Shown: one piece after another, positions 9,247 to 18,876 of the stretch
Layout of the letters: the number at the start of each line of letters is the position of its first letter
Position numbering within the stretch: position 1 is the stretch's first letter
Origin: Planctomycetota bacterium
Lineage (GTDB): Bacteria; Planctomycetota; UBA8108; UBA1146
DNA: 64,000 bases
Reading direction: 5' to 3'
NCBI GenBank assembly: GCA_018694835.1
Contig: JABHOG010000034.1
Coordinates: 1-64,000, forward strand
Position numbers and translations under genes: made by a program
The notes under the pieces: generated by a model
What the model saw: only the letters and a program-made list of their open reading frames with translations
Database searches by the model: none
Told to the model about the DNA's origin: nothing

Positions 9247-12138
9247 TCAGGGACAGTTCCCACCGTCGAGGCAATCGCCTAACAGATCCAAGGAAGTATC
9301 CCATCCACAGGAGGGGAAGGGGTCGGCAGGTGGATTGCCACTTCCAAACAGGTACATGACCAGCGCCATCGTGTCTGCGATGTTCACCTCTCCCGTGTCA
9401 TAAATATCCGCCGTATCGAGACACTGAAGAGTGCTTCCATCAAACAGGTACTGAAGGATTGCCACGGCATCGGAGACATCGGTGGCTCCATCACCATTGG
9501 GGTCTCCACGGCGAAACGATGGGCCAGTCTGACAGAAGCGAGTAACGACACGGAAATCATCGATCCCTGCTTCGACGATGGAACCCTCATTCTGATCCGC
9601 TGCAATGAATCGCAGTTGCACCGTACTGGTCAGAGGGATCAATGGTGCTGGATCGAAAGAGTGCAAGATCCAGCCCCCGTTGGTGTCGGGACCATTCTGC
9701 GGGCCCACCTGTTCAACAGTGACCCAGTTGACCAGATCACCCGAGATCTCGATTAGCCAGGGATCGGTGTAGGGAGTAGCTCCGGTGCCATTGACATACC
9801 AGCGCCAGTACTCGATGAGGACAGTGTCGCTTCCAAGAGCGCCCAGATCCATCACCGGAGAGAAGAGAGTGGTAGCCCCGCCATCGACATCATTTTCGCC
9901 CTGGCCGCCGCCATTACTACCCTGCCCTGTCACCCAGCACTGAGAGCCGACTTCACTGTGGTCATCCCCGGGAGCGGCCACCGTTCCAATGGGCGCCACT
10001 CGCGTCCAGATTCCGGTAGTGGCGGTATCCGAGGGGGCACCCACCGTCCAACCCCGATCCTGTTCCATCGAATTCTCGAAGGTCGTCTCCTGCATAAGAT
10101 ACACCGGAGCAAGGAAGGGATCAGACGCTCCGGAGGAAGGAGAGGTGTGGATTCCGCCGGTGAGATCCTCGAAACTGATGTAGTACTCGACCGGATCGCC
10201 ACACGAATGGCCGGGGATCGTCGCCAGGTACTCTCCGGTAACCATCTCCTCGATCGGGAATGTGCTGAAAGTAGCCGTCCCCTGCCGCACATGGATCAAT
10301 CCGGAATCGGGGTCTGGGGTGGCAGCCCCCGCTGTGACCTCCATGCGAATCTGCCGCTCTTCCAGCGGCACAAGAAACTCTGGTAACCCAAGTGGGTAAG
10401 AGATCAAGATCTCGTCCACCACAGGACAAACGATCGAGTGTTGTCCGAAAGCATCGCAGATCTCTGAGTAATTTGGAGTTCCGTTATCCAGCGAAGAATC
10501 ATCATCATCGAGGGTGAGTAGTTCGATGGCGGTCTGCGGATGAGCACTCGAAGATCCAGCGCCACCGGTGGTGATCAGACTCCAGTCAACAAACAACTGT
10601 TGCACCTGGGAGAGCCCCTCGGCGGATCCGTACACCGCTCCAAAATTCTCCCGCACTCTCCAGAATGCCGCCCCCAGGATCTGGCCGCAGTTGTGGACAG
10701 AAGTGGACTGGCAAGGGTACTGGATGTTCGCCGCCAGAGGATTTCTGACCTGTGTTCCTGGCCCTTGAAAGTCATGGCCGATGATGGGGTCGTCGTAGAT
10801 CAACATACTCATCAGATCCCCATACCCTTCGCCAAAACCACCCTGAGAAAGACCCAGTCGGTTGACCACGAAGTGCCCATACTCGTGAGAGATCACACTT
10901 GCGTAGGCGGTGCTCACACAGCCTCCGCCCGCCTGGTAGAAATTGATGCTTTGCTCCCCCGGGCTGAAAAACGCATTACAGGTATCGAGGATGTTGACAT
11001 TGCAGAGGATCGAGATATCGATGCCGGGATTACCCGCAGCGGTCCGATCTCTGAAAAAGTCATGGGTGATGTTGGTGTAGTGGAATGCATTGACCTCTGA
11101 TTGCACCAGGGCATCGGCCGCAGGATTCAATGAAACCGTGGCCGGTCCCGGTGGAGTCGCAGGAGTGTTGACCAGGAGATTCGCAGCGACATTGTTTTCG
11201 ACCCTGACCCAGTCTCCGATCAACTGTGAAACCATGCTCACCGGGGCCGTGCCTCCATGGGGACAGGTGAAGGACCCATCCAGCGCAGAGGTGGTCGACC
11301 CGCTGCCAGAAATCGATACAGGAACTGCTCCAACCCCCTGCTCCACTGCCGGATTCGTGGCGCTGTCTGGGCGGTTATTCTGATTGACCCGACCCCGGAC
11401 TTCTCCAACCACATCTTCATGAACCAGATCGTTGCGCACACCGAGAACTTCCCCGGTTTCCGGATCGATGAAGATGCTCCAGTCCTCAATTCTGTGTGAA
11501 CTGGGAGTAGTCGCCTTGACCCGGTAAATGAGACGAGAATCACTACGCAATGATGCACTGGCCTGAATCAACAGTTCTCCCTCGGACCAGCGCTCGATTT
11601 CGATTCCAGGAAGTTCCCGGCTCGCTATTCGAGTCGCCTGTTGCGGGGTCAACAAGATCGGCGAGTAACCTGACAGAGGTTGTTGAGCTAGGTGACCCGC
11701 TGCATACACCACTGCAGGATCTCCTGTTTGCAGATCTGGTCGAACCAGGATTCGCAATGCGGAAGACTCCACGGGTACGCCATCGATGACTTGCCGGTAG
11801 GCGTACACCGAGGCCTCTCTGGTCGGTAAATCGGTCTGGTAGATCATCTCCAGGTCTTCCTTGAAGACTCCAAAGATCTCTGCATATTGCTCAAAGAAAT
11901 TCAGAACCGCGTCGTCCTCACTGGTTCCCCGGCTGATGACGCCACCGTAGATATGAGTTCTTCCCAGACCATCGCGATCCACCCGGATCGAAGAATCACG
12001 GACAGTCAAAGCTTCGATGGAAACCTCGATCTCTTGCTCAAATGGACGTTCAGTCCACTCCTGGGCAAGTGAGGTACTGGAGGCCACCGACAGCAGGCAC
12101 ATCATCCCGAAGACCACCTGAACTGGAAATTGCGGCAT
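9247..12138 (-). CDS. Secreted zinc metalloprotease with dockerin-like C-terminus
   Basis: Exported protease of 963 residues. The signal peptide ends near SVASSTSLAQ. It is followed by a fungalysin/thermolysin-type propeptide-like region (about 40-240, including AYRQVIDGVPVESSALRI) and a catalytic domain with HEYGH at 418-422 and a likely third ligand Glu437 in FGEGYGD. Later beta-sandwich domains and a dockerin-like pair (GDPNGDGATDVSDAVAILQY) end in GDCLDGGNCP. Start supported by AAGGAG six bases upstream. It is a tandem paralog of the next gene, with about 200 bases between them. Family placement near M36 is by motif order only. Confidence 0.85.
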   Translation of the reverse strand: MPQFPVQVVFGMMCLLSVASSTSLAQEWTERPFEQEIEVSIEALTVRDSSIRVDRDGLGRTHIYGGVISRGTSEDDAVLNFFEQYAEIFGVFKEDLEMIYQTDLPTREASVYAYRQVIDGVPVESSALRILVRPDLQTGDPAVVYAAGHLAQQPLSGYSPILLTPQQATRIASRELPGIEIERWSEGELLIQASASLRSDSRLIYRVKATTPSSHRIEDWSIFIDPETGEVLGVRNDLVHEDVVGEVRGRVNQNNRPDSATNPAVEQGVGAVPVSISGSGSTTSALDGSFTCPHGGTAPVSMVSQLIGDWVRVENNVAANLLVNTPATPPGPATVSLNPAADALVQSEVNAFHYTNITHDFFRDRTAAGNPGIDISILCNVNILDTCNAFFSPGEQSINFYQAGGGCVSTAYASVISHEYGHFVVNRLGLSQGGFGEGYGDLMSMLIYDDPIIGHDFQGPGTQVRNPLAANIQYPCQSTSVHNCGQILGAAFWRVRENFGAVYGSAEGLSQVQQLFVDWSLITTGGAGSSSAHPQTAIELLTLDDDDSSLDNGTPNYSEICDAFGQHSIVCPVVDEILISYPLGLPEFLVPLEERQIRMEVTAGAATPDPDSGLIHVRQGTATFSTFPIEEMVTGEYLATIPGHSCGDPVEYYISFEDLTGGIHTSPSSGASDPFLAPVYLMQETTFENSMEQDRGWTVGAPSDTATTGIWTRVAPIGTVAAPGDDHSEVGSQCWVTGQGSNGGGQGENDVDGGATTLFSPVMDLGALGSDTVLIEYWRWYVNGTGATPYTDPWLIEISGDLVNWVTVEQVGPQNGPDTNGGWILHSFDPAPLIPLTSTVQLRFIAADQNEGSIVEAGIDDFRVVTRFCQTGPSFRRGDPNGDGATDVSDAVAILQYLFDGSTLQCLDTADIYDTGEVNIADTMALVMYLFGSGNPPADPFPSCGWDTSLDLLGDCLDGGNCP

Positions 12139-12335
12139 GGAAGACTCCTTGATGGGCCACTGAATGAAGTTTCATCGAATCAAAAGCCGGGACTCACCGG
12201 GGCAGAACCAATGCCATCATAATCCCTACCACCACACACGGCGAGTGGCGGGGACCGAAGAGGCTGAGGGTCGAGGGGGGGGAGAGAGAAGATATGCCAC
12301 CAGGCCTGTCGAGTCGGAAAGGCCCCGCTCTCGAC

Positions 12336-15161
12336 TCAGGGGCAGATCAGACCATTCAGGCAACCGATGGAATCGGACGTGACATCCGCACCGCAGTTGA
12401 TGGGACCACCAGGAAATCCGAGGAAGAGCTCATTGAGAATCTGGATCACATCGCCCAGATTTACCTGCCCTCCGTCATCCATATCGCAGGCGTCCTCACA
12501 CTGGAACGAACCGGCGTTGCCAAACATGACCTCGAGCATCTGAATCGCGTCGCTCAAATCCCTGTTTCCATCGATATTGCAATCACCCCGGATGAAGTCG
12601 TTCTCGACTGGCGGGGGTGGAGTTGTGCTGCAGGAGAGATTAAAAATCTCGATCAGATCCACGCCCGCCTCGACCACGTTGCCGAATCCGGTATCCCCGA
12701 CATGGAACCGCAACATCACTGTCCCTGAAGGCGAGGTGCCTTCCGCAATCCAGAAGGAGTTCTTGTACCAACCTCCCAACGCTTCAGGATCACCTCTACC
12801 TACTTCCTCGACCTCCACCCAGGTGAGTCCCTCATCCAGGCTCTTGTAGACGAACAGGGAGTCATCGGGAGTGGTGATGGATGTCGCATTGGAAAACCAC
12901 CGCCAGTAGGAAACTCGGTGAAGGCCCGTATTGGAGAGTGGATAAGCCACGCTGGTCAAGGTGGTATCCCCACCATCGACATCGTGCGCTCCTTGAGTTT
13001 GTCCGATACCGCCGAGACCCGTGACATAACAGGTCAAATCCCCACCGGTGAAGGGAACACCTCCGCTGGCTTGCGCTGCCGAAGCGTACGGATCTCCCCA
13101 CTCCCATCTTCCCGCAGTAGCCGTATCCGACGGCTCAGCGATACTCCAACCAGGATCTGCACTGAAAGGCTCCTCCACTACCGTGATCAGGTCAGTGGCC
13201 ACGACCGTCGAGTAGTAGACTCCAAGATCCGCATCGGGTGGAAGTGTAGTCGTTTGATTGGCGTCATCCTGAACGCTGACAAACCATTCGAGGGAATCGA
13301 GACAGTCCAACGCAGGAAAGTTACCTTCATAGACTCCCGGAGAAGTTTCGGTGAGCAAGAAGGCCTGGAATGGAGCCCCCTCGAATCGATAAATCACCAT
13401 CGAGCCATTTGGAAGTGGAGTGGCAAGAATCTCCTCGACCAGTACCCGGATCGGTGTCGAAGCCGCAGGGGGCACCGTCGCTCCTGGACCCAAGTCCAGC
13501 CCCAAGAGGATAGTGAGTAGTTCTGGACTCACGACACCGTGGTCTGATGCAGCCGCACAAATCTCGTCAAATTGAGGTGTTCCATTGCCCACATCGAAGT
13601 CGTCATCATTGACGGTGAGTACCTCGATCAGCATGTCATAGTGAAAAGGTTGAGATGCGCTAGCCCCGATGGTCAGGCTACTCCAGTCGACGAATAGATC
13701 CCTGATGAATTCAGAACCTGCGGCTTCCCCCAGTTGGGTGACCATCGTCTGCCGCAGGTCAAACCAGAATCCAGCCAACGCCTGGCCGCAGTAATGAATC
13801 CCTGAAGAACAGGGAATCTGTACATTTGCAGCGACGATGTCTCGGACAAAGGTCCCCGGGCCGGAAAAATCCCTACCCACGATCCCCTCACCCAGATAGA
13901 CCACCGCCAGTGAGTCGCCATACCCTTCCCCGAATGACTGCTGTGCCAGCCCAAGGGAATTGACGATGTGATGGCCGAACTCGTGAAGTACGACCGACGA
14001 ATAAGCACTATCTACGCATCCTGCTCCGGATTGCAGGAAGCGTAGCATCGTCAATGCGGGATCATAATAAGCGTTGCAGCTCCCTGCCATTCCAGTGGTC
14101 GCTGTCACCGGGGTCGCCATCGCTGGGAATCCTCCGGGAGCATCCACAAAGAATCGGAACGCTTCTTCCATGTAATGGAACGCGTTGCCCTGTGCCGTCT
14201 CGGCAATGACTTGCCCACTGTTGATGACCAGATCCACTCCTGCTGGATCTGCAGTAGCAGAGGCGGTCGCATCGGGGGAACTATCACTGGAGACGGAACC
14301 CCACTGGCCCTGCAGGCCAGCGAGCACCGTGAAGTTGGAGCCCGTGGCATTCGACAGCAAGAAGGATCCGTCAGCAGCGGTGAAGGTGCTAACACCTCCG
14401 CCAGAGACCTGCGCTCCTGACAGAGGAAAGCTGATGGTGGTTCCCGGTGATTGCGGAGCGGTACCTTCAGTTCTGAAGACGCTGGCGGTTCCTGGTACAT
14501 CGATCTCACAGATCTGTTCCTCGACTGCGAGGACTTGACCCGACTGAGCATCGACATCGACACGAAGATTACTGTGATGCCCCGGTATGGTAGAAACTCC
14601 AGAGTTGACCCAGCATAGGGTCGGCTCTCCGTCTTTACCCGGTGCCAGTTGCAACGTCGGCTGCAACCAGTCACGAGAAGGGTGCCCCATCCTGGCGACT
14701 TGCAACGCTGAGTCTTTGTTGAGAACTGGTGCTGGAATCTCCTCAGGAGTCGAGTAGCGAAATGCCCTATAGGTAACGGTCCAGAGTCCCGTGACTCGAT
14801 CGCGTATCGCAAGGCTCCGGCCCATCGCCCCTCGAACTGAATACCCGTTCATCTGTTGAGTCCAGCCGGCAAAAACTTGGTCCTCAGATTTTTCCCGAAT
14901 CCAGGACAGGGTCATGGTGGAGCAGGTGTCGGGCCCCAGTGTTCTCTCTAGATCCAGCGTCAGGGCAATATGCACATCGGTGGAGGCGGGACCCAGACGG
15001 GTACCGTTTCTCAATTCTGCCCCCAGCATCGATTCGGAATTGAGGAGTACCGCCGACAACACGATCAGCACCGTGGCGAAGTTGCAAGTCCCCCACGCAT
15101 GGATGGATTGCTGAGCTCCGGATGTACTAGATCCTCGTCGAGGATTCATTTTCAGATGCAT
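12336..15161 (-). CDS. Secreted zinc metalloprotease, tandem paralog
   Basis: Same architecture as its downstream neighbour. An N-terminal hydrophobic export segment (FATVLIVLSAVLL) and a propeptide-like region precede HEFGH at about 393-397 and a third-ligand candidate Glu in FGEGYGD. Repeated jelly-roll-like domains follow, then a dockerin-like end (GDCNIDGNRDLSDAIQMLEV) and GCLNGLICP. The ATG at 15161 is used; ATG 15149 or a start at 15218 are alternatives, and none has a clear ribosome site. Cys pairs are frequent, consistent with an oxidising extracytoplasmic location. Confidence 0.83.
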   Translation of the reverse strand: MHLKMNPRRGSSTSGAQQSIHAWGTCNFATVLIVLSAVLLNSESMLGAELRNGTRLGPASTDVHIALTLDLERTLGPDTCSTMTLSWIREKSEDQVFAGWTQQMNGYSVRGAMGRSLAIRDRVTGLWTVTYRAFRYSTPEEIPAPVLNKDSALQVARMGHPSRDWLQPTLQLAPGKDGEPTLCWVNSGVSTIPGHHSNLRVDVDAQSGQVLAVEEQICEIDVPGTASVFRTEGTAPQSPGTTISFPLSGAQVSGGGVSTFTAADGSFLLSNATGSNFTVLAGLQGQWGSVSSDSSPDATASATADPAGVDLVINSGQVIAETAQGNAFHYMEEAFRFFVDAPGGFPAMATPVTATTGMAGSCNAYYDPALTMLRFLQSGAGCVDSAYSSVVLHEFGHHIVNSLGLAQQSFGEGYGDSLAVVYLGEGIVGRDFSGPGTFVRDIVAANVQIPCSSGIHYCGQALAGFWFDLRQTMVTQLGEAAGSEFIRDLFVDWSSLTIGASASQPFHYDMLIEVLTVNDDDFDVGNGTPQFDEICAAASDHGVVSPELLTILLGLDLGPGATVPPAASTPIRVLVEEILATPLPNGSMVIYRFEGAPFQAFLLTETSPGVYEGNFPALDCLDSLEWFVSVQDDANQTTTLPPDADLGVYYSTVVATDLITVVEEPFSADPGWSIAEPSDTATAGRWEWGDPYASAAQASGGVPFTGGDLTCYVTGLGGIGQTQGAHDVDGGDTTLTSVAYPLSNTGLHRVSYWRWFSNATSITTPDDSLFVYKSLDEGLTWVEVEEVGRGDPEALGGWYKNSFWIAEGTSPSGTVMLRFHVGDTGFGNVVEAGVDLIEIFNLSCSTTPPPPVENDFIRGDCNIDGNRDLSDAIQMLEVMFGNAGSFQCEDACDMDDGGQVNLGDVIQILNELFLGFPGGPINCGADVTSDSIGCLNGLICP

Positions 15162-15416
15162 ATTCACAGATATGATCCAACCGCAAAATATACAGGTCCT
15201 TACCACTTGGAAACACAAGTATAGGTCCTATAACGAGCATGGCCGCTCACTGACCGATAATAATGAAATCTTGCCGTCTGCAATCGCAAAGCCTGGAATA
15301 GTCAGGTTTCCTTTTATATGTGCAGAACAACTAGCCCAATAAATAGTACCCCCTTGTATCGAGGATAGTACAGGATCGTCCTGAACATGTCAAACCATTC
15401 ATTATGCGAATTGAAG

Positions 15417-15784
15417 TCACTGTTGCAGCTGTGCCACTCCATTGTTAATCGGCCTCCGATCCAACCCTAGCCAGCACCAAGAGAGCAATAGCCCCGATCC
15501 ACCCAGCGGTGTCAGCCACCCCAACAGGGAAGAGCCTCCTCTTGCGAGGAGCAGGGAACCACAATAAATAATGTAGGCAATAGCATCAATCGTCCCTGTC
15601 CGACCCGTCCGGTGGCACCACAGATCCATATTCCACTGGCGTGCCAGAACAGGAATCGGCAACCGATCTCCCACTGTCCCAGCGAAGCAGTCTCCTGCAG
15701 TCGATGAGTTCCCCAAGCACTACACCCAACAGCAATCGCCGCCAGAAAATATGCAACTCTGATCCATCCAGATGAACTCAGCAC
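15417..15784 (-). pseudogene. DUF423-family small membrane protein, frameshifted
   Basis: Two overlapping frames together make one DUF423-like protein. The first half, from a GTG at 15784, reads VAYFLAAIAVGCSAWGTHRL and shows the family N-terminus. The second half, in another frame, reads IIYCGSLLLARGGSSLLGWL and TPLGGSGLLLSWCWLGL, the typical C-terminal membrane segments. The reading frame changes around 15590-15615. Either the gene is broken or there is a sequencing indel; the intact conserved second half argues for a recent event. It is last in the methyltransferase operon, overlapping it by 7 bases. Confidence 0.7.
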
Positions 15785-16950
15785 AGCCCCCCCTGCTCTC
15801 GTTCGATGGCAAAGAGCCATTCATGCACTTCATCTTCTGTGCGCCCTTCTGCTGGCCGAAACTGCCTGCTGGCTCCTCCTCGGTCACTCCTGAATCTCCG
15901 ATATGGAATCTCGTGCAACATCTGATCCCTGTCACCTGCGGGTGACCAGGACTGGAGCATCTGAAGAATTTCCGTTCTCGAGAGGATCCCTTCTTCACTG
16001 TATGAAAGAACGATTCCCCTCGCCTGGGCTCGTTGAATGATGCTTTGCATCGCATCTCTACAGTCCGTTCCTCGACGGCTACAAAGTGGAGAAGACACAT
16101 CTTTCCAGGGTAACAATCCAGTTTTTCCATACAGTTGGAGCTCAAGGGAATCGTCAGAATCCTCCATCGGCAACCGTGAAATCACTTCTGGAAGATGGTA
16201 GTTGGCTCCATATTGTCGGTGATTATAAGGCGGATCGAGATACAGGAGATCGCAATCCACCTGCTCGATCCACTCCCCGGCCTCACAACGATTGGCCTGT
16301 CCGATGGGCCCCTCGACGGTAGCAGGAATTCGAAGTTTCAGATCATTCAGCGAGTTCTGCTGCCAGCTCTTGAGATAAGCACCGTAGGTTCCAGAGATGT
16401 TGGCCACTCGGTCTGCGGCATCGATGACACTCACAATCAACAGCCACATCTCATTCTCCTGCAAACGATCATCGATTCGCCACTGTCGGATCTGGTCGAT
16501 GATGGCATCTAGACGAGCCGCGTTGACCGGAGTCAGATAACCCCTCTCGGCCGACCCTGCGGGAGAAAACTGCCGCACCAGAATCCCCTCTCTGGCAGGC
16601 AACTCCTGCTCCAGATACCGAATCAATTTCAGAAATGGCAGCCATGCTTCGGGATCAGCGGGACTCGCATCGTGGACCCTCTTGGCTTCCATCGGTTCCA
16701 TCGATTCCCAATGATCCTGAACTCCACTGAATGACGGCGGGCCAGGGCATTCCAGATAGACCTTCTGGAACGCCAAAGAACAGTGCATCAGATCGGTGGA
16801 AACTACACGGTAGCCGCTTGCCCGGAAAAAACGGCCGACAGACCCGCTACCTGCAAACAGATCGCAGACGGTGCCACCTCGAAAACCGGCCCGCTTGGCT
16901 GCGAGCAGGATCTCATCGAGCAATGGGGTCTTGTTTCCAAGCCAGCGCAA
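15778..16950 (-). CDS. D12-class DNA adenine methyltransferase (first of an adjacent pair)
   Basis: SAM-dependent N6-adenine methyltransferase of 390 residues. It shows the D12-class order RWLGNKTPLLDEI, SAM motif CDLFAGSGSVGRFF (about 29-42), a long variable region, catalytic motif YLDPPYNHRQYGANYH and the late motif IVLSYSEEGIL. The TTG start is preceded by GAGGAG; it begins one base after the stop of the other methyltransferase. No restriction endonuclease gene is nearby, so its role may be orphan methylation or the remains of a restriction system. The target sequence cannot be read from the sequence. Confidence 0.83.
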   Translation of the reverse strand: MRWLGNKTPLLDEILLAAKRAGFRGGTVCDLFAGSGSVGRFFRASGYRVVSTDLMHCSLAFQKVYLECPGPPSFSGVQDHWESMEPMEAKRVHDASPADPEAWLPFLKLIRYLEQELPAREGILVRQFSPAGSAERGYLTPVNAARLDAIIDQIRQWRIDDRLQENEMWLLIVSVIDAADRVANISGTYGAYLKSWQQNSLNDLKLRIPATVEGPIGQANRCEAGEWIEQVDCDLLYLDPPYNHRQYGANYHLPEVISRLPMEDSDDSLELQLYGKTGLLPWKDVSSPLCSRRGTDCRDAMQSIIQRAQARGIVLSYSEEGILSRTEILQMLQSWSPAGDRDQMLHEIPYRRFRSDRGGASRQFRPAEGRTEDEVHEWLFAIEREQGGLC

Positions 16951-16951
16951 T

Positions 16952-18352
16952 CTACTCCTCGCAAAGCAGAAGCAATTCTCGAACCGATCGGTTGGAATCC
17001 CCCTGCCCCGAGTGCATCAGTAGTTTCTCGCGAATCTCAACTTGCCCGAAGTACTCCAGCAGTAACTGTCGAAACCTCCGTGCTGGGTTCTGTTCCCCCT
17101 GCTTTGCCCAGCGACCGGTCAGAAGTCCGGTATCGGTGGAGTACGAGATCAGAAGCCTTGAACTCCGATCCTTGCACGCTTGAGCCACTCCTCGAAACGC
17201 CTCCTCAACCCGAACGCTGCTGCAGAAATCGGAGCGGTACCTGACCTCCTGCTTTGGATATCGACCCTTGGTCAGAGATCCTCCCCGGCTCTCCAGTTCT
17301 GGATAGTCGTAGGCAACCAGGGTTTCCAGAACATGGTAAAAGCGCGAGTAGTTGTCTGCGGTATAGGGCGGATCGAGATAGACCAGATTCACTTCCTCGT
17401 TATCGAGTGGACTTCCTGGAGCGAGCAATTGCTGAACATCGCTACAGAAGACCCGGTTTCCGTCGAGTCTTGGATGGTGGGACCACTCTCTCAGGATCGC
17501 TTCGAGCGCCAGTTCGAATTGCTGATCGATGTCAATTTTCCGGCGCTTGACCACCGCTACAAGTTCAGGATCTCGGGCGATCGATCGAGGCTGAGCAAAG
17601 TGACTGGTCCCTGAGGTACTCACCGAAACCGCATGTAGCAGAGCTGCGAGGTATATTGCCCGCTTCCTCTCCCGATAAGGATCCGAGGAGGGGATCGCCT
17701 CGATGGCATGGCGGATCGAATCGATCCGAATCGACTGCCTCAGTCCAAAGTAGACATGAGACCAGTACGCGGTGCAGAGCATCGCCGGAGAGCCCCCTGA
17801 GGATTTCCGTCTCTGGTAGAGCAAGTCATCCAGACGACTCGCAAGAGGCTGATGCACTCCTGCATCACCTTCATCGGATGAGGTTCCGCCAGCGCCATGA
17901 GGAATCGGAGCCTGGGCCACGAAGGAACGATAGCGCTCCATGGCACCGCTATCGCTCGCATTTCCCGAACCCTCTTTCAGCACCTGGTCGAGCAATGAAT
18001 CTTCCAGGTCCAGGGCTCTCGGTGCCAGGTTGGTGAGCCACTGAGCATTCTCCTCTGTCGCACTACCCAGATCCTGGAGATGGTCCAACTGGTCCAGGGA
18101 GTTTCGCCACGACTCATCCCCCTCGAGGTGAGCGCTCGCCACGATGGAGGAGAAGTGTTGAACATCATTGCTCAGGATCCGATAGGTCGGGGCGAACCAG
18201 CGAGACACGGCAGCGGTTCCAGCACACGCATCGAGAAGAGTTTGACCTGGATCCAGCAGATCACGTACTGCACCGTCGAGGAATTCTTCGCACAGCCTGG
18301 TCTTGGCTCCCATGTACCAGAGGGTTCGTAATTCTGCCAGATCTCTGCTCAT
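16952..18352 (-). CDS. D12-class DNA adenine methyltransferase (second of the pair)
   Basis: Methyltransferase of 466 residues, with the same motif order: LWYMGAKTRLCEEF, SAM motif LLDACAGTAAVSRWF, catalytic YLDPPYTADNYSRFYHVLET and the late motif LLISYSTDTGLL. The region between the SAM and catalytic motifs is about 270 residues, much longer than in Dam, and presumably holds target recognition. The SAM motif reads AGTAAV rather than AGSGSV, a mild departure. It overlaps the SRPBCC gene by 4 bases, and the partner methyltransferase starts one base after its stop. The two proteins are divergent, not a recent duplication. Confidence 0.8.
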   Translation of the reverse strand: MSRDLAELRTLWYMGAKTRLCEEFLDGAVRDLLDPGQTLLDACAGTAAVSRWFAPTYRILSNDVQHFSSIVASAHLEGDESWRNSLDQLDHLQDLGSATEENAQWLTNLAPRALDLEDSLLDQVLKEGSGNASDSGAMERYRSFVAQAPIPHGAGGTSSDEGDAGVHQPLASRLDDLLYQRRKSSGGSPAMLCTAYWSHVYFGLRQSIRIDSIRHAIEAIPSSDPYRERKRAIYLAALLHAVSVSTSGTSHFAQPRSIARDPELVAVVKRRKIDIDQQFELALEAILREWSHHPRLDGNRVFCSDVQQLLAPGSPLDNEEVNLVYLDPPYTADNYSRFYHVLETLVAYDYPELESRGGSLTKGRYPKQEVRYRSDFCSSVRVEEAFRGVAQACKDRSSRLLISYSTDTGLLTGRWAKQGEQNPARRFRQLLLEYFGQVEIREKLLMHSGQGDSNRSVRELLLLCEE

Positions 18353-18876
18353 CCGTGACTACCCACCCGTTCGAGAATTTCGCGAAGACTGGCGAGCCAA
18401 TCCCTCTGCAGATCTGCACAGCGCACAGCACGCCGTCCGATGATGAGAGAAGCCCAACCCTTCCATGATGACACGAATTCGACCAGAGAGCCGCCGCCGT
18501 CCGCCATGATCATCAGGCGCACCTGACTTCTGAAAGGCCCTCTTCCAGCATCCCAGGAGATGCCCCTCAGCGGGGGTGCGTTCGAGTCCTGTGAACCTGG
18601 AATCGATACAACCTGGTCTTGCATGATCACACCGCCGGAGAGGGGTGCCCCCCCCCAGGGTTGCCAGATCAGTTCAAATCGTGATCCCGGCTTCCACGCC
18701 TCTCCCTGGGTCCACCGAGCAGATTCCAGGCCCTGGCACCACCGAGGCCACTCCTCCAGCTTGGAAATCGACTCCCAAGTCTCCTTGGGCTCGATGTTGA
18801 ACCAGGTGGTTTCACGAACCGAGAGAATACGCAAGGTTTCCGGAACCCCTCCCTGGGCCAGTCGGACCAACTCCAT
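18349..18876 (-). CDS. SRPBCC/polyketide-cyclase-like protein
   Basis: Cytoplasmic protein of 175 residues. It has the START-like layout of the SRPBCC superfamily: a first strand ETTWFNIEPKETWESISKLE, then WPRWCQGLESARW, and a C-terminal helix (DLQRDWLASLREILERV). The family binds hydrophobic ligands in a helix-grip cavity; no ligand can be predicted. It is the first gene of the operon with the two DNA methyltransferases, coupled to the second by an ATGA overlap. Functional connection to methylation is not obvious. Confidence 0.7.
   Translation of the reverse strand: MELVRLAQGGVPETLRILSVRETTWFNIEPKETWESISKLEEWPRWCQGLESARWTQGEAWKPGSRFELIWQPWGGAPLSGGVIMQDQVVSIPGSQDSNAPPLRGISWDAGRGPFRSQVRLMIMADGGGSLVEFVSSWKGWASLIIGRRAVRCADLQRDWLASLREILERVGSHG

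Follow-up and report, generated by a model that had tools for sequence, protein, structure and literature searches.

Two D12-Class Adenine Methyltransferase Genes Without a Detected Partner Nuclease Are Conserved in a Class of Planctomycetota: A Probable Orphan Pair of LlaI/LlaJI-Like Kind

Results

Gene Pair and Genomic Neighborhood

The window, i.e., the whole stretch of 64,000 nucleotides analyzed here, was taken from the 3.13-Mb draft genome of a Planctomycetota bacterium (GCA_018694835.1, contig JABHOG010000034.1, positions 1 to 64,000). Two intact genes for D12-class adenine DNA methyltransferases lie head to tail on its minus strand: M1 (16952–18352, 466 amino acids, ATG start) and, following it, M2 of another subfamily (15778–16950, 390 amino acids, TTG start). 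The M1 stop codon TAG (16952–16954) and the M2 start codon (from 16950) are separated by the single base 16951, and the sequence GAGGAG at 16955–16960 is a possible ribosome site for M2. This layout of the junction (16951–16960, minus strand) suggests translational coupling of both genes. An initial annotation, made from the nucleotide sequence, had described two abutting, unlike D12 methyltransferase genes one base apart, and its coordinates proved exact. It had also called them divergent, which holds for the protein sequences and not for the orientation, as M1 and M2 form a tandem on one strand.

The flanks were likewise as annotated, an SRPBCC gene and a broken DUF423 gene, with both Pfam matches (PF10604 and DUF423) under the cut-off. 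The SRPBCC/polyketide-cyclase-like gene (18349–18876, minus strand) overlaps the M1 start by 4 bases and probably opens the operon in the family to which this genome belongs; in the sister families no such gene was seen beside M1. The end of M2 is overlapped by the DUF423-like gene (15512–15820, minus strand). The DUF423 region (window 15417–15820) is frameshifted here, while the closely related genomes G006 and G005 have a single open frame of 143 amino acids; the frameshift is either a real loss or a draft error. A syntenic block of two DUF4139 proteins, DUF6941, SRPBCC, M1, M2, DUF423 and two large secreted proteins was found in genera g1, g4 and g5; individual genes are absent or were not called in places. 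The two large secreted proteins of the window (9247–15218, in tandem, 963 and 960 amino acids) fall into one cluster, and the first carries a PepSY domain and a dockerin-like stretch.

Enzyme Family and Structural Models

Using the Pfam model MethyltransfD12 with its cut-off of 22 bits, M1 scored 45.5 and M2 79.7 bits. The motif X lysine, the motif I glycine and a DPPY motif IV, which served as the test for D12 enzymes, were found in M1 (WYMGAK, LDACAGT and YLDPPYT for motifs X, I and IV) and in M2 (RWLGNK, DLFAGS and YLDPPYN). In alignments that take in relatives from restriction systems, K17, D41, G45 and D327–Y330 of M1 (32 rows) and K7, D30, G34 and D239–Y242 of M2 (20 rows) are invariant. 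The stretches TSHF.QPR and HSGQGD of M1 are invariant over 16 aligned Planctomycetota rows. The similarity between M1 and M2 is confined to short motif stretches (38–39% over about 75 residues), and they formed separate clades in an unrooted tree, M2 grouping with the N-terminal half of a FokI-type fused methylase and M1 standing apart. M2 matched the N-terminal half of a fused methylase that adjoins a FokI-type nuclease, and from this relative we would guess at a GATG-like core as the M2 target.

Good AlphaFold models were obtained, with a mean pLDDT of 87.6 for M1 and 87.8 for M2. For both, E. coli Dam (4rtj) was the best Foldseek match, with E-values of 3.2e-4 (M1) and 3.4e-5 (M2), TM-scores of 0.28 and 0.35 by query length and an rmsd of about 10. 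The low TM-scores probably reflect the small Dam core as compared to the long helical insertions between motifs I and IV. A sequence search of solved structures yielded chance matches alone. An rRNA methyltransferase was also considered: the NCBIfam RsmD/Dam matches were sub-threshold, and this assignment was rejected because motif IV reads DPPY and the Pfam D12 model was passed.

Distribution in Family, Class and Phylum

The pair was found present and adjacent in all 16 family genomes, which represent 5 genera; the M2 match of G002 contains one in-frame TGA. The order has one further genome, in which M1 is broken between two contigs and its second part is followed by M2. All genomes of the class are drafts. 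M1 was found in 26 of 29 of them and an M2 match at E 1e-10 in 27; the G027 match (E 4.7e-12) among them comes from a more distantly related D12 gene. Both genes were present in 25 of the 29; G024 has M1 alone, G017 has M2 alone, and two f6 genomes have neither.

In a phylum sample of 392 genomes, M1 was detected in 39, M2-type genes in 44 and both in 36 genomes (Fisher p ~1e-39, with relatedness ignored). The M2-type threshold for this count was set to 1e-30 in order to keep out a block of M3-like matches. M2-type genes without M1 occurred in 8 or 9 genomes (8 of the 44 M2-bearing ones). Three genomes had M1 only, and in one of them (G155) the contig ends on that side of M1 where M2 would be expected. 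The third D12 methylase, M3, is a solitary gene (G000:C98:16842-17924, equal to L104:8843-9925) found in 13 of the 16 family genomes. It has a synteny of its own near a POT transporter (L104, L105, L107 and L140), and M3-like matches are common elsewhere in the phylum, too.

Descent and Selection

Pairwise distances over 17 class genomes correlated with those of RpoB at r=0.956 for M1 and r=0.971 for M2, and with each other at r=0.963; none of 1000 permutations gave such correlations. The rpoB search comprised 30 genomes, of which 19 were used. Dropped were G002, G007 and G021 with a cut-off M1 or M2 and G108 with two rpoB copies, and the remaining genomes were left out because one of the three sets contained no row for them. 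The M1, M2 and RpoB trees agree in the main, with G004 placed with another genus in the M1 tree (94/93) but not in those of M2 and RpoB. In comparison to G006, G005 and G004, dN/dS values of 0.167, 0.127 and 0.116 were calculated for M1 and of 0.059, 0.072 and 0.041 for M2, with dS saturated in the G004 comparison; four neighboring genes gave 0.08–0.28. As judged from these sequence comparisons, M1 and M2 are vertically inherited and under purifying selection.

Separation of M1 and M2 in Sister Families

In families f3, f4 and f5, M1 and M2 were located on different contigs in all 8 genomes having both, and unlinked is used here in this sense for draft genomes. About 8 kb on each side of M1 were available in L109, L112, L113 and L115 and did not contain M2, and HMM searches revealed no second D12 gene in the M1 stretches of these families. 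Neighbors were judged by Pfam-typed proteins or HMM matches, because the gene caller is misled by shadow frames on the opposite strand of GC-rich loci. In the representative L109, M1 is flanked by biotin-synthesis genes on one side and prephenate dehydrogenase on the other. The biotin-synthesis Pfams (aminotransferase class III, AAA_26, aminotransferase class I/II and BATS/radical SAM) can be read as bioA, bioD, bioF and bioB. By Pfam typing of the representative L120, the surroundings of M2 include genes for a Cpn60 chaperonin, a sigma-54 activator and a MurD-like ligase. Of the 9 M1 stretches, 7 contained the prephenate-dehydrogenase cluster; of the 9 M2 stretches, 5 contained the MurD-like cluster. 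The initial annotation had taken a frequent occurrence of the pair in housekeeping loci as an argument against its interpretation. Such sites are indeed used in the sister families, but we read them the other way round, since housekeeping siting argues for a maintained mark.

Adjacency of M1 and M2 recurs in families f23, f28, f56 and f63; in f23, Pfam typed none of the neighbors. From this recurrence we conclude that M1 and M2 were probably linked ancestrally and came apart secondarily in f3–f5.

Search for a Partner Nuclease

The search for a partner nuclease covered known partner families in draft genomes. RE_LlaJI was found in none of the 29 class genomes, with a positive control in B. subtilis matched. 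The LlaJI-type AAA model matched in one of the 29 (G028, which has no pair) and in none of the pair-bearing class genomes, and the McrC-like PF10117 in two (G010 and G015), on contigs other than those of the pair. The initial annotation had seen no restriction enzyme in the window, and searches of all window frames agreed with it for LlaJI-type nuclease, LlaJI-type AAA and PLD nuclease. PADLOC gave no match among ten neighboring proteins. HMMs for AAA, LlaJI nuclease and PLD nuclease detected nothing in 99 partly overlapping planctomycete stretches (1.25 Mb), and a beta-class methyltransferase model gave one weak match there.

Relatives Outside the Phylum

An M1 profile scan was performed with one genome per species, and the best 80 of 95 loci were kept. 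Among these 80, 36 showed 36–96% identity and, after a gap, 44 showed at most 31% and were spread over many phyla. A second methyltransferase gene lies next door in all 44 outside relatives (9 M2-type, 35 beta-class), and in 43 of them a nuclease or its AAA partner is found beside M1. The initial annotation had proposed to look for the two-gene block next to nucleases in other genomes, and this search was successful: 9 of the 44 loci are M1–M2 tandems, all with an AAA protein and 7 with a LlaJI-type nuclease. A PLD nuclease adjoins M1 in 34 of the 44 and a beta-class methyltransferase in 35. One locus (L187) has a weak PDDEXK_7 match alongside; another (L189) starts near a contig end, and the beta-class gene alone is visible. 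Among the best 80 of 95 loci, the nuclease-free form was found in Planctomycetota alone and restriction cassettes in many phyla and on plasmids. For viral contigs, a single-protein scan with M1 gave nothing, and a profile scan gave one contig, which carries AAA and a LlaJI-type nuclease.

A few loci deserve mention in their own right. The E. coli conjugative plasmid pTE_T100_3 (L232, NZ_MW574942.1) encodes an M1-like and, one base further on, an M2-like protein, together with an AAA ATPase and a nuclease of the LlaJI family, i.e., an adenine-methylating LlaJI-like system. In 34 of the 44 outside loci (within L186–L229), over many phyla, an M1-like D12 gene is accompanied by genes for a beta-class methyltransferase and for an NgoFVII-like PLD nuclease, apparently a widespread restriction type. 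One gene order is common to two distant hosts, a planctomycete (G148, L138:1620-8681) and the Bradyrhizobium japonicum plasmid pUSDA123-1 (L268:1360-10292): an M2-like D12 methylase, a HAD hydrolase, a GGDEF protein, a methyltransferase-domain protein and an M1-like D12 methylase, with extra genes and a transposase in between in the plasmid copy. PADLOC had no match for the tested HAD, GGDEF and methyltransferase-domain proteins, and the arrangement is possibly an undescribed modification or defense cassette.

Discussion

A Two-Enzyme Chromosomal Mark and Its Alternatives

We consider it rather probable that M1 and M2 are an active pair for an asymmetric site, of the LlaI/LlaJI-like kind, which is inherited vertically as an orphan and now serves as a chromosomal mark. 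We infer that both are enzymatically active and, by analogy to described systems, share one asymmetric site; the cellular role and the evolutionary direction proposed here are to be understood as deductions in the same way. M1 would methylate the adenine of one strand and M2 that of the other strand of this site, so that both strands would become methylated. The initial annotation had suggested such a division, and the second methyltransferase beside M1 in all 44 outside relatives strengthens it. The first use of the pair was probably protection from a cognate nuclease. In the planctomycete class it would have been an operon at first and, in some families, later two separate genes. What selection keeps in this class would be the mark itself; rather than restricting DNA, the pair most likely now marks the chromosome, for gene regulation, for the timing of replication or as a sign of strand age. 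The proposed direction from restriction system to orphan rests on an unrooted tree; the restriction cassettes in many phyla and on plasmids, as against a nuclease-free form in Planctomycetota alone among the 80 loci kept, speak for it.

The three possibilities left by the initial annotation fared differently. A maintained epigenetic pair agrees with its presence in 16/16 family genomes, vertical descent, purifying selection, the housekeeping sites in the sister families and the failure to find a partner nuclease. A degraded restriction system is acceptable as ancestry, as the outside relatives stand in LlaJI-type or PLD-nuclease cassettes, but not as decay, for neither enzyme is decaying. That we might be looking at a leftover of a lost restriction system in the process of decay is therefore highly improbable: the DUF423 gene after M2 carries a frameshift here and G002 has its in-frame TGA, but motifs are intact, frames are open, dN/dS is low and both genes are kept in 25/29 class genomes. 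For a new defense arrangement no support was obtained.

More weight has to be given to two independent orphan adenine methyltransferases with own targets, possibly palindromic or one-strand, and own roles, which merely share one operon here. Unrelated sites would explain the unlinked genes of f3–f5 just as well, the 8 of 44 M2-bearing phylum genomes without M1 indicate that M2 can be kept alone, and the solitary M3 in 13/16 family genomes shows solitary D12 enzymes to be normal here. On the other hand, 36 of the 39 M1-bearing phylum genomes also have an M2-type gene, the nine outside M1–M2 tandems are single cassettes, and in the other outside loci a beta-class methyltransferase takes the place of M2, as the modification of both strands of an asymmetric site needs (PMC12707154). 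Independence of the two enzymes thus appears possible, yet unlikely. A working or recent restriction-modification system, its nuclease encoded elsewhere or belonging to an unknown family, is still less probable. The nuclease or AAA partner adjoining M1 in 43 of 44 outside relatives speaks for it, and so does the use of draft genomes and known partner families in our search. Against it stand the absence of RE_LlaJI from the 29 class genomes and of LlaJI-type AAA from every pair-bearing one, the 99 stretches (partly overlapping) without AAA, LlaJI or PLD nuclease, and the housekeeping neighbors at both unlinked sites. Furthermore, restriction systems are described as typically patchy in a survey of Halobacteria (PMC6471742), and the M1–M2 pair is not.

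Possible Significance of an Asymmetric Mark

Returning to the two-enzyme chromosomal mark, each strand would be marked by a separately encoded enzyme, and the two strands of one site could therefore carry different methylation levels. Tentatively, and with a good deal of doubt, we suggest that a whole class of Planctomycetota keeps an asymmetric two-enzyme adenine mark without restriction, by which the cell could read strand, replication age or gene orientation. If true, this strand-wise reading would be beyond the reach of Dam or any other lone methylase with a palindromic site. Enzyme pairs with one member for each strand are known from restriction systems, where they form the protective half, and the orphan methylases of the literature cited here are single enzymes. 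A nuclease-free pair kept across a class, even when separated, would show the modification half of a restriction system domesticated as a whole. It would also offer a natural case for the inheritance of an asymmetric mark through replication, which a 2025 review describes as mostly obscure (PMC12707154). No description of a nuclease-free orphan pair was found in the full-text literature, a search that most subscription papers fall outside.

Comparison With Known Systems

Systems of the LlaJI, LlaI and BsuMI type combine two methylating activities with a McrB-like AAA protein and a McrC-like nuclease. The methylase of LlaI is one fused FokI-like protein. The planctomycete pair has the M1–M2 tandem family in common with nine outside cassettes and with pTE_T100_3, but the McrB-like AAA protein and McrC/LlaJI nuclease that stand beside the methyltransferases in this type were not found next to it. 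A defining part of the LlaJI system was sought in the 29 draft class genomes and not found with the pair, and M1–M2 is hence not counted among its members; the pair probably modifies DNA in the way the modification half of a LlaJI-type system does. LlaJI methylates the asymmetric site GACGC/GCGTC by two enzymes (PMC1459862). These are 5-methylcytosine methyltransferases, whereas M1 and M2 are D12 adenine enzymes. Two N6-adenine activities for the two strands are described for GATGC/GCATC of the SfaNI-like Cal02329 (PMC9799307) and for GATG/CATC of MhoVII (PMC12898733), and asymmetric-site modification in these reports relies on two enzymes or two domains (PMC1459862, PMC9799307, PMC12898733). 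In contrast to the FokI, SfaNI and MhoVII Type IIS systems, M1 and M2 are two separate D12 genes for which a partner nuclease was not found.

With the lineage-conserved orphans the pair has in common its near-universal presence (16/16 in the family, 25/29 in the class), the lack of a detected partner nuclease and vertical inheritance. Dam and CcrM are lineage-conserved orphan methyltransferases. CamA is another one (PMC8187626), and conserved orphans are described for Halobacteria (PMC6471742). Like all of these, M1 and M2 are core genes passed on vertically with no nuclease found; unlike Dam, CcrM, CamA and the halobacterial orphans, which are single enzymes, they are two distinct enzymes kept together, even where unlinked. 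Lineage-conserved orphan methyltransferases as such were known already; new here is a D12 pair that is orphan, core and related to LlaI/LlaJI at the same time.
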